Origin: Chitinophaga sp. XS-30
Lineage (GTDB): Bacteria; Bacteroidota; Bacteroidia; Chitinophagales; Chitinophagaceae
DNA: 64,000 nt
Direction of reading: 5' to 3'
NCBI RefSeq assembly: GCF_008086345.1
Contig: NZ_CP043006.1
Span: forward strand, 2,106,032-2,170,031
How positions within the stretch are numbered: the first letter of the stretch is position 1; each line of letters begins with the position of its first letter. This document shows positions 17,191 to 21,976 of the stretch, piece by piece. Both the position numbers and the translations under genes were made by a program. The notes beneath the pieces are model-generated. The model was not told the origin of the DNA, ran no database searches, and was given only the letters and a program-made list of their open reading frames with translations.

Positions 17191-17844
17191 TTACAGCTTT
17201 TCCAGCAGCATATCGTTAAACTCCAGCAGGGAGCCTAACTGCATATCCGCCAGCCCGAAGCGCTTGTCATTCCGCTTGTGCGCTTCCGGTACCACCACCA
17301 CTTTCATGCGCGCAGCCTTGGCGGCCGTCATGCCCGTTACAGAGTCTTCGAATGCGAGGCAGGAAAGCGGGTCGCTGTCCAGCTCCCGTGCGCAGGCCAG
17401 GTACACGGCCGGATGGGGCTTCCCATAGGGTTCGAACTCCGCGGAAATAACCGCATCAAAGGATTCGCGGATACCCAGGTGGTTCAATGCCGACTGGATA
17501 AGCTGCATGGGAGAGGAGGAGGCGAGGCCCATTTTGAAGTTCCGCTGCCGGAAGAAATCCAGGATATACTGCAGGCCTTCCATTGGCTGCCCTTCCCGGA
17601 GGATCTTGCCGGTGACGTTTTCGATGATCTCGGCGGTGACCTGCTCCGGCGTTTTGCTGTTCCATTTAAAATAGTTGTGCCAGTAGCTGACCACTTCTTT
17701 GGTGCGGAGACCGGTGGTGAGGTGCGTCAGTTCGGAGCTCAGTTCCACGCCAACGGAGGAGAAAACTTCCTGCATGGCGATACCCCAGAGCGGCTCCGAA
17801 TCGATCAGCAGCCCGTCCATATCAAAAATCACCGTATTGATCAT
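17191..17844 (-). CDS. hxpB: HAD-family phosphatase, HxpB-like
   Basis: 217 residues from the ATG at 17844; the upstream in-frame extension lacks family similarity. The HAD motif I is IFDMDGLLIDSEPLW with both Asp residues, motif II is LASSSP, and motif III/IV are KPHPAVYLACA and AFEDSVTGMTAAKAARM. Together with VVVPEAHKRNDKRFGLADMQLGSL it closely follows the E. coli hexitol phosphatase HxpB (YniC), which removes phosphate from sugar phosphates such as 2-deoxyglucose-6-P and hexitol phosphates. Beta-phosphoglucomutase is a less likely alternative. It converges with rpsA and diverges from the sulfite reductase operon. A TACCTTTG on the minus strand at 17879-17872 is its likely -7 element. Confidence 0.85.
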   Translation of the reverse strand: MINTVIFDMDGLLIDSEPLWGIAMQEVFSSVGVELSSELTHLTTGLRTKEVVSYWHNYFKWNSKTPEQVTAEIIENVTGKILREGQPMEGLQYILDFFRQRNFKMGLASSSPMQLIQSALNHLGIRESFDAVISAEFEPYGKPHPAVYLACARELDSDPLSCLAFEDSVTGMTAAKAARMKVVVVPEAHKRNDKRFGLADMQLGSLLEFNDMLLEKL

Positions 17845-17879: not shown

Positions 17880-18088
17880 AGCAGAAAAGGGGAATGCCCC
17901 GGTATTCGACGGCATGTCCACCGAACCAGGGCTGTCTGCATTGCATCTTGATGACGGAGTCTGATGATATGGCCCGTGACAAGCTGACGCCCCACCGCAT
18001 ATACCCGGATATCTTGCTGTTTAGGCTTTAAATCCCCCTTTCTTTGAATATTTTCTAATTTACCCCCCTCTTTTTTAGTGAAAAAAGT

Positions 18089-18119
18089 TTTGTGGTTACG
18101 CATCGGGTATCTACCTTTG
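18089..18119 (+). promoter_or_regulatory. Promoter of the sulfite reductase/siroheme operon
   Basis: TTTG at 18089-18092, 19-bp spacer, TACCTTTG at 18112-18119. Transcription should start near 18126, giving a ~217-nt leader before the sulfite reductase start at 18343. That leader holds the Cys leader peptide and the terminator. Confidence 0.8.
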
Positions 18120-18169
18120 TATTACTCTACAAAATCTATAGGATTATGGGTTATAAGATATCGATAGGA

Positions 18170-18211
18170 ATGAACATGTGCAAATGCTGTCGGGACCGCT
18201 CGGCAGACTAG
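18170..18211 (+). CDS. Cys-containing leader peptide (13 residues)
   Basis: ATG at 18170 opens MNMCKCCRDRSAD and a TAG stop at 18209-18211. Three of the first seven residues are Cys, in a leader placed before genes of sulfite reduction, the step feeding cysteine synthesis. The short sequence TAGGA lies just upstream. The two adjacent Cys codons (18185-18190) enter the 5' arm of a hairpin (CTGTCGGG 18187-18194 with CTCGGCAG 18199-18206, loop ACCG), and a terminator follows at 18254. This is the classic layout of ribosome-mediated attenuation: scarce cysteinyl-tRNA would stall the ribosome and change folding. Poly-Cys leader peptides with this role are known in mycobacteria; use of the principle here is inference. 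Translation of this ORF is not proven. Confidence 0.6.
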   Translation: MNMCKCCRDRSAD

Positions 18212-18253
18212 GGGGATTCTATATATGAAACTGTTTTCAGCAATCATACAATG

Positions 18254-18287
18254 AAGGCCTCCGGATGCAAACGGAGGTTTTGTTTTT
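18254..18287 (+). terminator. Leader terminator (attenuator) before sulfite reductase
   Basis: CCTCCG (18258-18263), 8-nt loop, CGGAGG (18272-18277). The stem extends to ten pairs with AAGG/TTTT including two G-T pairs. A T-rich tract TTTTGTTTTT follows at once. It lies inside the transcribed leader, 43 bases after the leader peptide stop, so it should stop transcription unless relieved. Confidence 0.78.
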
Positions 18288-18342
18288 ACAGGCATCTGCC
18301 GGAAGTTATGAATACCAATTAATCACGAGCAACTTATTTATC

Positions 18343-20457
18343 ATGCAAAGCTTCAGAACCGAACTGGAAAATCCGATAGTAGAAAGGGACATCATTGAAC
18401 TGGAACAAAAGATCAGGCTGTTTCGCGAAGGCAAAATGCCGGAAGAGAAATTCCGCAGCCTCCGGCTGGCGCGTGGTGTTTACGGGCAACGCCAGCAGGG
18501 TGTTCAGATGGTGCGTATCAAACTGCCTTACGGCAAAATGACGCTGCAGCAGTGGATCCGCATCTCCGATATCTCGGATGAGTATTCTACGGGGAACCTG
18601 CACCTGACCACCCGTCAGGATATCCAGATCCACTTCGTGTCGCTGGACAGAACGCCCGAACTCTGGGCGAAGCTGGAACAGGACGATATCACCCTTCGGG
18701 AAGCCTGCGGGAATACCGTCCGTAATATCACCGGATCTGACGCTGCGGGCATCGACCCGAATGAGCCCTTCGACGTAACACCATACGCGGACGCGGCCTT
18801 CCGGTATTTCCTGCGTAACCCCATCTGCCAGGATATGGGCCGCAAATTCAAAATGTCCTTTTCCTCCAGTGAAAAAGACACGGCGTTTGCCTTCATGCAC
18901 GATATTGGCGTGATACCTAAAGTGCGGGTGGTGGAAGGAAAGGAGATCAGGGGCTTCAAGGTAATGGTGGGCGGCGGTCTCGGAGCGCAGCCCTATCTGG
19001 CGAAAACGGCATTCGAGTTCCTGGAGGAAGATCAGCTGATCCCCTACATTGAAAGTGTGCTGCGGGTGTTCGACCGCCACGGCGAACGGTCCAGCCGCCA
19101 TAAAGCGCGCATGAAGTTCCTGATCCAGAAAATAGGGATGGAAGAATTTACGCGCCTTGTGCAAGAAGAATACAAGGCTATCAAATCCAAAATAGTACCG
19201 GTGGACCATGCGTCCTGGCAGGAGGCGGCCGCACCGGCTGCGGATGCGCAGCTGCCGGCATATGAGGTGAAAGATCAGCAGCAATACGAAGCCTGGAAGA
19301 AAACGAACACTTTTGAACAGAAGCAGAAAGGCTTTTACGCGGCATATGTTCGCGTACCGCTGGGTAACATCAGCTCCGTTACTTCCCGCTCCCTGGTGGA
19401 AAAACTGCGGTTGGTGATTGCGGATGACGTGCGCATTACGGTGAACCAGGGCCTGCTGTTGAAATATATCCGCCCGGAGTATCTGCCGTACGTTTACAGC
19501 GTACTGGCGGAGGCCAAACTGCATGCACCGGGTTTTGACAGCATTGCGGACATCACGGCCTGCCCGGGTACGGATACCTGCAACCTGGGTATCTCCAGCA
19601 GCACCGGTATTGCCGCTGCCCTGGAAAATGTGATACATGATGAATTTCCGGACCTGATCTACAACAATGATATCAAGATCAAGATCAGCGGCTGTATGAA
19701 CTCCTGCGGCCAGCACGGTATGGCCAATATCGGCTTCCATGGTTCTTCCCTGAAGAGCGCGGGTAAAGTATTGCCGGCCCTGCAGGTATTGCTGGGCGGT
19801 GGTGTGCTGGGCGATGGCGCGGGCCGTGTGGCGGACAAGGTGCTGAAAGTGCCGAGCCGCCGGGGACCTGATGTGCTGCGCACCCTGCTGCATAACTATG
19901 AAAGCAATGCCCTGCCGAACGAATTGTTCAACGACTATTATGACCGCCAGGGGGAAAAATATTTCTACGATCTGCTGAAACCGCTGGCTGACCTGAGCGC
20001 GGTGAAGGATGGTGATTTTATCGACTGGGGCCAGGCGGAGACCTTCAGCACCGCGATCGGTGTGGGAGAGTGCGCCAGTGTGATCATCGATCTGATCGCC
20101 ACCCTGCTGTTCGAAGCGGAAGAAAAGCTGGAATGGGCGGCGCAATCCTTTGCCAATAACGCATGGGCCGACGGCATCTACCATACTTACGCCTGTATGA
20201 TCCAGACCGCCAAATCCATCCTGCTGGATGAAAACGTGAACTGCAACACGCAGCATGGTATCATCAATGATTTCGACAAGCACTTTGTGGCAACGGGCCG
20301 TTTCCAGATGGAGAGTTTCCGTGACCTGGTGCTGCAGATCAATCAGCACGAACCGACAGAAAGTTTTGCCAAGCAATATTTCCAGCAGGCAAAAGCATTT
20401 TACGACAGGGCACAGCAGTACCGCCTGGAGAAACAGGCTGCTGGTGTGAATGCCTGA
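18343..20457 (+). CDS. sir: Siroheme-dependent sulfite (or nitrite) reductase with C-terminal HEPN-like domain
   Basis: 704 residues from ATG 18343. An in-frame ATG at 18265 lies in the loop of the leader terminator and is rejected. Two ferrodoxin-like/siroheme repeats are present; the [4Fe-4S]-siroheme ligands are CPGTDTC (C407, C413) and CMNSC (C451, C455). It reduces sulfite to sulfide with six electrons in the cytoplasm; nitrite reduction is possible, but the Cys leader and linked siroheme genes favour sulfite. After the reductase ends (about residue 550), ~150 residues are all-helical (EKLEWAAQSFANNAWADGIY, THAC-like, QHGIINDFDKHFV, AKQYFQQAKAFYDRAQ) and match the pattern of HEPN domains. 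cobA follows after 28 bases. Confidence 0.88.
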   Translation: MQSFRTELENPIVERDIIELEQKIRLFREGKMPEEKFRSLRLARGVYGQRQQGVQMVRIKLPYGKMTLQQWIRISDISDEYSTGNLHLTTRQDIQIHFVSLDRTPELWAKLEQDDITLREACGNTVRNITGSDAAGIDPNEPFDVTPYADAAFRYFLRNPICQDMGRKFKMSFSSSEKDTAFAFMHDIGVIPKVRVVEGKEIRGFKVMVGGGLGAQPYLAKTAFEFLEEDQLIPYIESVLRVFDRHGERSSRHKARMKFLIQKIGMEEFTRLVQEEYKAIKSKIVPVDHASWQEAAAPAADAQLPAYEVKDQQQYEAWKKTNTFEQKQKGFYAAYVRVPLGNISSVTSRSLVEKLRLVIADDVRITVNQGLLLKYIRPEYLPYVYSVLAEAKLHAPGFDSIADITACPGTDTCNLGISSSTGIAAALENVIHDEFPDLIYNNDIKIKISGCMNSCGQHGMANIGFHGSSLKSAGKVLPALQVLLGGGVLGDGAGRVADKVLKVPSRRGPDVLRTLLHNYESNALPNELFNDYYDRQGEKYFYDLLKPLADLSAVKDGDFIDWGQAETFSTAIGVGECASVIIDLIATLLFEAEEKLEWAAQSFANNAWADGIYHTYACMIQTAKSILLDENVNCNTQHGIINDFDKHFVATGRFQMESFRDLVLQINQHEPTESFAKQYFQQAKAFYDRAQQYRLEKQAAGVNA

Positions 20458-20485: not shown

Positions 20486-21262
20486 ATGCAAGTAATCCAA
20501 CCGAAAGTGACGCTGGTAGGCGCGGGTCCAGGTGACCCGGAGCTGATCACTGTAAAAGGCCTGAAGGCGATCCAGAACGCCCGGGTGATCCTGTACGATG
20601 CTTTATCGAACAACGAATTGCTGGACCATGCGCCGCAGAACTGCCTCCGGCGTTTTGTAGGCAAGCGTGCCGGTATGCATGTGTACACCCAGGCGGAGAT
20701 CAACCGCATGATCGTGACGTATGCGCTGACCTATGGCAGCGTGGTGCGCCTCAAGGGTGGTGATTCCTTTGTGTTCGGCCGCGGACAGGAGGAAGTAGCT
20801 GCCGCAGCGCAATATGGTATTGAAACCGAAGTGATCCCGGGCATCAGCAGCGCTATTTCTGTGCCGGGGGTGAACAATATTCCGGTAACGGCGCGGAACG
20901 TGAGCGAGGGTTTTTGGGTGATCACGGGCACTACGCAGGACGGAAAGCTGTCCCGCGACCTGGAATTTGCCATACAGGCGGATACCACCGTGGTGATCCT
21001 GATGGGGATGAGCAAACTGGACGAGATCGCCGCGATCTACTCCCGTCACGGGCGCGGTCAGGTTCCGGCTGCCATTATTCAGAACGGTACGCTGCCAACG
21101 CAGAAGATCGGAGTGGGGGTAGCGGAAGACCTGGGCAATATTGCCCGGGAACAGGGGTTGCGCAACCCGGCCATCATCGTGATCGGTGAAGTGGTGCGCT
21201 TCCACGAGGCTTTCCAGGACCTGCAGAGCAGGCTGGCGGAGAACTACCGGCTTGCAGTATAA
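20486..21262 (+). CDS. cobA: Uroporphyrinogen-III C-methyltransferase
   Basis: 258 residues, normal for a single-domain SUMT, which uses SAM to make precorrin-2 from uroporphyrinogen III. Motifs are VTLVGAGPGDPELITVKG (the GxGxGD SAM loop), YDALSNNELL, VRLKGGDSFVFGRGQEE, EVIPGISSAI and GFWVITGTT. It supplies siroheme, the cofactor of the reductase encoded just upstream, and the next gene completes siroheme synthesis. A large nested hairpin separates it from that gene. Confidence 0.95.
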   Translation: MQVIQPKVTLVGAGPGDPELITVKGLKAIQNARVILYDALSNNELLDHAPQNCLRRFVGKRAGMHVYTQAEINRMIVTYALTYGSVVRLKGGDSFVFGRGQEEVAAAAQYGIETEVIPGISSAISVPGVNNIPVTARNVSEGFWVITGTTQDGKLSRDLEFAIQADTTVVILMGMSKLDEIAAIYSRHGRGQVPAAIIQNGTLPTQKIGVGVAEDLGNIAREQGLRNPAIIVIGEVVRFHEAFQDLQSRLAENYRLAV

Positions 21263-21391: not shown

Positions 21392-21976
21392 ATGGAACAG
21401 AATCATTTATTTCCTGTGTTTTTCAAGCTCGAGCAGCTGCAGATGCTGGTCGTCGGAGGGGGGAATGTAGGGCATGAGAAGGTGAACGCCATCCTGCAGA
21501 ACTGTCCCGCTGCGCGGGTAACCGTGGTGGCTACCTGGTTTGCGCCGGAACTGGAAGCGCTGGCGGCGGGGTTTCCGAATGTAACGCTGGTGCAGAAGGC
21601 CTTTTCCTGCGGGGATATCTTCGGGAAAGACCTGGTCATCGCCGCTACGGCGGACAAGGAACTGAATGCGTGCATCTGGGAAAAGGCGAAAGCGGGCAAG
21701 GTATTGATCAATGTGGCGGACACGCCGGCCTTGTGCGATTTTTACCTCGGCTCTGTCGTGCAAAAGGGCAGTCTCAAGATAGCGATCTCCACCAATGGCA
21801 AATCGCCCACTATTGCCAAGCGTTTGAGGGAGGTGCTGCAGGATGCGATCCCCGAAACCCTGGAAGCCGTTCTGAACAACCTGGGCGCCATCCGGGAAAG
21901 GTTGAAAGGCGACTTTGCGGATAAGGTGAAAAAGCTGAATGAGCTGACGAGTGTGCTGGTGGGAAAGGGGAGCTGA
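21392..21976 (+). CDS. Precorrin-2 dehydrogenase / sirohydrochlorin ferrochelatase (Met8/CysG-N type)
   Basis: 194 residues. The N-terminal NAD-binding fold (MLVVGGGNVGHEKVNAIL) is followed by DLVIAATADKELNACIWEKAK, VLINVADTPALCDFYLGSVVQKGSLKIAISTNGKSPTIAKRLRE, the well-conserved Met8/SirC core, and a short dimerisation helix. It oxidises precorrin-2 to sirohydrochlorin and in the bifunctional type inserts iron to give siroheme. It completes the cofactor pathway begun by cobA. Whether it chelates iron itself cannot be decided from sequence alone. The gene is convergent with the thioesterase, with three bases between stops. Confidence 0.9.
   Translation: MEQNHLFPVFFKLEQLQMLVVGGGNVGHEKVNAILQNCPAARVTVVATWFAPELEALAAGFPNVTLVQKAFSCGDIFGKDLVIAATADKELNACIWEKAKAGKVLINVADTPALCDFYLGSVVQKGSLKIAISTNGKSPTIAKRLREVLQDAIPETLEAVLNNLGAIRERLKGDFADKVKKLNELTSVLVGKGS

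Follow-up and report, generated by a model that had tools for sequence, protein, structure and literature searches.

The region ahead of the siroheme reductase operon

The DNA examined here is the leader region of a siroheme sulfite/nitrite reductase-type operon in Chitinophaga sp. XS-30, a member of the Bacteroidota whose 6.18 Mb genome is a single contig. The window, by which we mean the whole stretch of 64 000 nucleotides that was analysed, contains the locus at positions 18089–18345. The locus is flanked upstream by a HAD-type hydrolase gene on the opposite strand (17191–17844, the nearest upstream gene) and downstream by the reductase gene on the forward strand. The forward strand of this interval carries a promoter, a short open reading frame (ORF) with three cysteine codons, a hairpin that overlaps those codons and an intrinsic terminator. 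Together these form a putative transcription attenuator, in which the supply of Cys-tRNA(Cys) would be the quantity sensed.

The leader ORF runs from 18146 to 18211 and comprises 21 codons, reading MGYKISIGMNMCKCCRDRSAD, with a TAG stop codon at 18209–18211. The cysteine codons are TGC (18179–18181), TGC (18185–18187) and TGT (18188–18190), the first two being separated by AAA. A previous sequence-only reading of this DNA had proposed an ORF of 13 codons beginning at 18170. That ATG and the stop codon are in place, but the start moves upstream on comparison with related leaders. In 40 Chitinophaga leaders the first ATG of the cysteine frame occupies one of two fixed positions measured from the start of an upstream ACTCTAC or AGTCTAC motif, at 22–23 nt in 30 loci (including that of the window) and at 14 nt in the other 10. 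Since the ATG is fixed in this way, 18170 and 18176 become internal methionine codons, and the true start of the leader is very probably the in-frame ATG at 18146.

A Bacteroidota-type promoter can be read directly at 18088–18119, comprising TTTTG (18088–18092), a spacer of 19 nt and the –7 box TACCTTTG (18112–18119); the boxes were classed using the Bacteroidota promoter consensus. By eye, a TTTG box together with a –7 box ending in TTTG is present in the 43 Chitinophaga alignment rows, out of 46, that reach the promoter. A sigma-70 promoter scan of the window, a method ill-suited here, does not report 18088–18119, as is expected for a promoter of this type. The leader ORF starts ∼20 nt downstream of the inferred transcription start, and judged from the position of the promoter its mRNA would not be leaderless.

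The hairpin that we designate 1:2 (18187–18206) has the arms CTGTCGGG (18187–18194) and CTCGGCAG (18199–18206), so placed that the 5′ arm lies within the cysteine codons. Its calculated energy is –11.2 kcal/mol, equalled or bettered by 20 of 200 shuffles. The terminator (18254–18287) was found both by folding and by a terminator scan, and consists of a stem (18254–18281) followed by a U-tract. The stem has an energy of –15.7 kcal/mol, and none of 200 shuffles was as good. Between the leader and the terminator lies GGGGG (18211–18215), the 5′ strand of a candidate antiterminator, which can pair with CCTCC (18258–18262) in the 5′ arm of the terminator. When the RNA between 18202 and 18268 is folded this pairing is formed at –16.8 kcal/mol, a value reached by 8 of 200 shuffles. 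The ATG of the reductase at 18343 starts 56 nt past the end of the U-tract. Thus the promoter, hairpin, terminator and reductase start described in the sequence-only reading are all there on direct inspection.

Conservation of the leader in Chitinophaga

The comparison within the genus used 46 loci, 36 from a first homologue search and 10 from a second, with one repeat (L069) dropped. The sequence-only reading had named a failure of the cysteine codons or their frame to be conserved as a point that would count against it, and the opposite is seen. A leader frame with two to four cysteine codons is retained in 40 of the 46 loci, while the remainder of the peptide is variable. Six loci judged to be without a leader were removed before this count. 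The 117 cysteine codons of the 40 leaders divide into 74 TGT and 43 TGC. An independent count of short ATG-initiated ORFs having at least three cysteines in six codons finds them in 24 of the 46 upstream regions, where dinucleotide shuffles predict 0.2; the ORF at L041, counted among these 24, is not a homologous leader. In C. cymbidii (L245, 90% identity), the closest relative seen, the leader is retained with two cysteine codons, and one base pair of the hairpin is U-A where that in the window is C-G.

Predicted pairing of the cysteine codons is also a recurrent feature. In 38 of the 40 leaders these codons are predicted to form at least three base pairs with sequence downstream of them. Among 14 close loci 98.2% of the hairpin cells are paired, compared with 31–49% in slid versions.

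A structured 5′ leader ahead of a sulfur operon might equally be a metabolite riboswitch or some other RNA sensor, with the ORF incidental. Yet no Rfam family, whether riboswitch, T-box or other, reaches its gathering score anywhere in the 64 kb, and conservation is seen in a cysteine-codon reading frame rather than in an aptamer-like fold. We regard such a sensor as extremely improbable.

Cysteine leaders in other bacteria

How widespread is this leader at the reductase gene? In other families of the order 48 of 75 reductase loci have at least three cysteines in six codons, compared with 1.75 expected by shuffling, and 43 of the 75 have at least four, compared with 0.05 expected. At the lower threshold the leader is found in 1 of 12 loci from other genera of the same family (0.15 expected), in 2 of 45 from the rest of the class (0.25 expected) and in 4 of 7 from other classes (0.2 expected). 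The distribution by family is uneven. Under our family labels, cysteine leaders are present in 9 of 11 loci of f12 and 7 of 9 of f19 (2 unusable). In f18 they are found in 28 of 37 (2 unusable) when g93 is set aside, and in 2 of 17 within g93. In f23 there are 2 in 10, and f28 and f30 have none in four and three loci, respectively.

Runs of at least four cysteine codons occur at 41 loci outside Chitinophaga, with a median length of 6 and a maximum of 10. TGT and TGC are mixed in 39 of these 41 runs. Such synonymous mixing points to selection on the meaning of the codons, rather than to a repeat at the level of DNA.

Two further observations concern short reading frames of this kind. At four Pontibacter loci (L281, L287, L289 and L290) there are tiny ORFs, such as MCCCCCCCCCCSC, 400–430 nt upstream of the reductase gene. 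The codon motif for CKCC occurs at 18 places in the host genome, of which the 17 other than the leader were viewed as reading frames only.

The terminator, the candidate antiterminator and their spacing

An intrinsic terminator regularly accompanies the cysteine leader. Both terminator arms and a T-rich tail can be seen by eye in the 40 aligned Chitinophaga loci, and folding was positive in all 23 of those tested. Of 78 loci with at least three cysteines, 72 have a terminator of –10 kcal/mol or better no more than 110 nt past the leader stop codon, compared with 0.2 expected by shuffling; these divide into 23 of 23 in Chitinophaga and 49 of 55 elsewhere, L041 and L181 having been excluded beforehand. 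A looser cut gives 73 of 80. As controls we took 69 non-Chitinophaga loci with the same gene and no more than one cysteine in six codons. In none of these 69 was there a terminator between –200 and –80, a placement that differs from that of the stretches tested in the leader-bearing loci.

These counts bear upon the objection that the locus is a chance conjunction of a short ORF with the terminator of some unrelated transcription unit. ORFs of 13–21 codons are indeed common, and the pairing tests made on the window by itself are non-significant. Against this stand the retention of the frame in Chitinophaga, the enrichment over shuffled sequences and the terminator controls, and in addition the nearest upstream gene is on the other strand. 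Chance seems to us a negligible prospect.

As to the candidate antiterminator, GGGGG at 18211–18215 aligns with AGGAGG facing CCTCC in several relatives. Its pairing attains p ≤ 0.05 in 19 of the 40 leaders from Chitinophaga; for reductase leaders elsewhere the figure is 28 of 41, and for leaders ahead of cysteine synthase genes (see below) it is 19 of 24. The 41 were drawn from 46 loci with at least four cysteines and the 24 from 25, those with no terminator or too short a stretch being dropped. Counted from the first base of the last cysteine codon, the predicted pairing strand starts at a median of 14 nt in the other reductase leaders (10–90% range 7–20) and of 13 nt in the cysteine synthase leaders (10–90% range 10–23). 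With the last cysteine codon in the A site, a ribosome would extend forward by approximately these 13–14 nt. The strand of the Chitinophaga leaders has its start between –21 and +5 nt relative to the stop codon, which would place it within the cover of a ribosome terminating there. On these predicted distances the strand would be free when the ribosome is at the control codons and covered when it is at the stop codon, the spacing required for ribosome-mediated attenuation.

The same anatomy ahead of other genes

The arrangement is not restricted to the reductase. We scanned 298 genomes of the order for six consecutive cysteine codons, (TGY)6; the output was noisy, consisting mostly of what appears to be the antisense of glutamine repeats. 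Among 30 of these loci that were examined there are five clear leaders (L338–L341 and L344), of which L338 is a reductase locus already counted. The others, all with terminators, precede a peroxiredoxin gene (L339, L340 and L341) and a cysteine synthase-like gene (L344); these gene names, and those at L328 and L330 below, are our reading of the translations.

Homologues of these genes were then ranked, and only the 30 closest loci were taken in each case, with queries that had been chosen for their leader, so that the following fractions are biased upward and are not frequencies. For cysteine synthase within the order, a leader with at least four cysteines in six codons is present at 25 of 29 usable loci, 24 of them with a terminator; the set includes the query's own locus (L361). 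Across the phylum 18 of 29 further cysteine synthase loci have at least three cysteines, and 11 of these have a terminator. Ten of the 11 belong to the same phylum but not to the same class (L428–L432, L434, L436 and L438–L440). For peroxiredoxin, 5 of the 30 closest loci score for a cysteine leader. A terminator is present in four of them (G055, G070, G124 and G127), and in each of these the peroxiredoxin gene is followed by a cysteine synthase gene on the same strand.

The loci at which a terminator-bearing poly-cysteine leader precedes a cysteine synthase-like gene or a peroxiredoxin–cysteine synthase pair are found among L339–L341, L344, L361–L390 and L419. In three genomes of other classes (L422, L423 and L425) the cysteine synthase leader ends in CCCCCCS followed directly by the stop codon, and the scan finds no intrinsic terminator; these three are possibly under translational or Rho-type control.

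Those three loci are also an argument for a translational mechanism, in which ribosome stalling would alter the folding of the mRNA and so expose the reductase start, as described for the poly-cysteine leaders of mycobacteria. The literature on Actinobacteria, as far as the accessible portions of the papers extend, has analogies: the poly-cysteine leaders of cys operons lack conserved terminators there (PMC1262725), cysteine genes of M. smegmatis are termed translation-attenuated (PMC13236596), and Rho-type or translational control is proposed (PMC1262725, PMC13236596). Yet at the locus in the window a terminator with a U-tract stands between the leader and the gene, as it does in almost all of the 78 leader-bearing loci, and the reductase ATG begins 56 nt past the U-tract. 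Translational attenuation is therefore an improbable account of this leader.

A different idea, with which the presence of the leader before a few peroxiredoxin genes would also agree, is that the runs of up to 10 cysteine codons encode a direct sensor, the nascent poly-cysteine chain itself reacting with or binding a sulfur species, a metal or an oxidant; alternatively the ribosome might read a sulfur-dependent modification of tRNA-Cys. If so, the attenuator would measure sulfur or thiol status, and not only the charging of tRNA. We consider this quite unlikely.

A dyad at the promoter

The dyad TTACTCTACAAAATCTATAGG (18122–18142, forward strand) is placed directly after the –7 box and before the leader, and is a candidate operator. 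The pattern TTASTCTAYN6TATAGG has just two exact matches in the host genome, one here and the other at the promoter of cysH (L219), which has the dyad and no cysteine leader. A dyad of the same form precedes cysH in 11 of 12 Chitinophaga loci, and a related motif persists at Chitinophaga loci that are without the leader. It is likely, from the sequences, that one transcription factor is common to the reductase and cysH promoters. Four further dyads appear when two mismatches are allowed, of which L328 is before a peroxiredoxin gene and L330 before an O-acetylhomoserine sulfhydrylase-like gene, while L327 and L329 have no recognisable sulfur gene nearby. At up to two mismatches the motif matches 6 times and the reversed control pattern 44 times; because the control matches more often, the two-mismatch dyads are merely suggestive.

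Could a protein bound at the dyad exert all the control, leaving the leader and terminator constitutive or secondary? The restriction of the exact dyad to two promoters and its survival where the leader has been lost would favour this. Such a scheme leaves unexplained the cysteine codons, their synonymous mixing and the terminators, and it gains nothing from the relaxed matches, in which the motif is outnumbered by its control. We judge control by the dyad alone to be quite improbable; most likely the dyad-binding protein and the leader act as two layers.

The genes of the operon

The reductase gene (18343–20457, forward strand) encodes a protein of the siroheme sulfite/nitrite reductase type (NIR_SIR), with Pfam domains PF01077 and PF03460. 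It falls below every NCBIfam equivalog cut-off, the NirA family giving the best score. We infer that it is an assimilatory sulfite reductase because genes for siroheme synthesis adjoin it, a cysteine leader precedes it and it has a dyad in common with cysH. Residues 588–669, at the C-terminus, have a weak HEPN-like match (21.1 bits against the Pfam cut-off of 22). Downstream on the same strand are genes for a uroporphyrinogen-III C-methyltransferase of siroheme synthesis (20486–21262, above the TIGR01469 cut-off) and a siroheme synthase N-terminal-type protein (21392–21976, above the TIGR01470 cut-off).

DISCUSSION

What is observed is the anatomy of the leader and its conservation, an excess of cysteine codons and of terminators, and, in relatives, the spacing. 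From these we infer that the leader is translated, that the ribosome stalls on it, and that the switch operates and responds to cysteine. The class of mechanism at this locus is very probably ribosome-mediated transcription attenuation sensing Cys-tRNA, to which we give a probability of about 0.88. RNA polymerase would initiate just past 18119, and a ribosome would translate the leader between 18146 and 18211. With ample Cys-tRNA(Cys) the ribosome would proceed to the stop codon at 18209 and cover 18211–18215, so that the terminator at 18254–18287 could form and the operon would be off. When Cys-tRNA(Cys) is scarce, a ribosome stalled at the cysteine codons (18179–18190) would hold the 1:2 hairpin (18187–18206) open and leave 18211–18215 free to pair with the 5′ arm of the terminator at 18258–18262, allowing read-through into the reductase and siroheme genes. 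Attenuation dependent on Cys-tRNA was what the sequence-only reading had proposed, and it is supported by the retention of the cysteine frame in the genus (40 of 46 loci), by the mixing of TGT and TGC, and by the terminators (72 of 78 loci with the leader and 0 of 69 without, on differently placed stretches). The nature of the downstream genes, a siroheme reductase operon and cysteine synthase-like genes, fits with control by the cysteine pathway.

A number of results weigh against this interpretation. Set against composition-matched shuffles, neither pairing in the window itself stands out, with p = 0.23 for the hairpin and p = 0.63 for the antiterminator. The weak GGGGG:CCTCC antiterminator suggested by the sequence-only reading occupies the position of AGGAGG:CCTCC in several relatives. 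The stability of the full leader is ordinary, with 31 of 200 shuffles as good; its fold has the terminator formed, as expected of a default-off state. Among the Chitinophaga leaders the energy of the hairpin at the cysteine codons beats shuffles (p ≤ 0.05) in just 12 of 40, and covariation of the hairpin in the 14 close relatives is non-significant (106 of 500 shuffles being equally good). Antiterminator pairing is non-significant in 21 of 40 Chitinophaga, 13 of 41 other reductase and 5 of 24 cysteine synthase leaders. The cysteine leader is missing from 6 of the 46 Chitinophaga loci (L033, L041, L042, L050, L054 and L063). Two of these, L033 and L054, retain GGAGG and a terminator in the absence of cysteine codons, and this suggests, as a side reading, attenuators in the course of losing or changing their sensor. 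Family f25 has no cysteine leader in 28 reductase loci (1 unusable). Lastly, genes of PF01507 (cysH, cysD and their kin, 30 loci) and six PALP-family genes of the host were tested for an ORF with at least three cysteines in six codons, and none of the 34 loci with usable upstream DNA had one (L225 and L228 being the two of the 36 without). On the window alone the hairpin and the antiterminator do no better than shuffles; it is comparison that gives the case its strength.

Attenuators of the trp and his type have codons for the end product of the pathway, a 1:2 hairpin, a 2:3 antiterminator and a 3:4 terminator. The leader described here has end-product codons, a 1:2 hairpin and a 3:4 terminator as well, with a candidate 2:3 antiterminator, and differs in the amino acid and in the phylum. 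It also departs from that type in that several candidate antiterminator strands of Chitinophaga, with the sequence AGGAGG, resemble a Shine–Dalgarno sequence. According to the accessible part of one study, the ribosomes of Bacteroidia do not recognise the Shine–Dalgarno sequence (PMC9976891).

With the mycobacterial and other actinobacterial leaders ours shares a short ORF with a run of cysteine codons ahead of sulfur or cysteine genes. It differs from the mycobacterial leaders in having an intrinsic terminator, and in an ORF that, to judge by the promoter, is not leaderless. Mycobacterial poly-cysteine leaders are reportedly the subject of an experimental paper of 2020.

A close parallel is the uORFC-8-2 motif, a predicted cysteine attenuator before cysS in Rhodobacterales (PMC8632094). 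As far as the accessible text describes it, that motif likewise has a short ORF, whose adjacent cysteine codons are part of a hairpin, and an intrinsic terminator downstream of it, with stalling proposed to occur on lack of Cys-tRNA; it belongs to Alphaproteobacteria, has two tandem cysteine codons and precedes a tRNA synthetase gene (PMC8632094). In contrast, the leaders described here are from Bacteroidota, have from 2 to 10 cysteine codons, and precede sulfite reductase-type and cysteine synthase-like genes, not cysS. Since a predicted cysteine attenuator with a terminator has already been published for cysS in Rhodobacterales, the kind is known, and what is added is the case in Bacteroidota. 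A transcriptome study of Flavobacterium psychrophilum describes leader-peptide attenuation before amino-acid operons, and cysteine is not named in the accessible part of it (PMC9723704). A literature search, with most subscription papers beyond its reach, found no description of cysteine attenuators in Bacteroidota, and the papers it found do not describe the control of cysteine synthesis in this phylum.

Our analysis indicates a regulon of cysteine-codon attenuators that comprises the sulfite reductase-type operon, cysteine synthase-like genes and a few peroxiredoxin–cysteine synthase pairs. It spans several families of one order and reaches other classes of the phylum. With as many as 10 consecutive cysteine codons, these leaders are an exaggerated form of classical attenuation, found outside the Proteobacteria and Actinobacteria.

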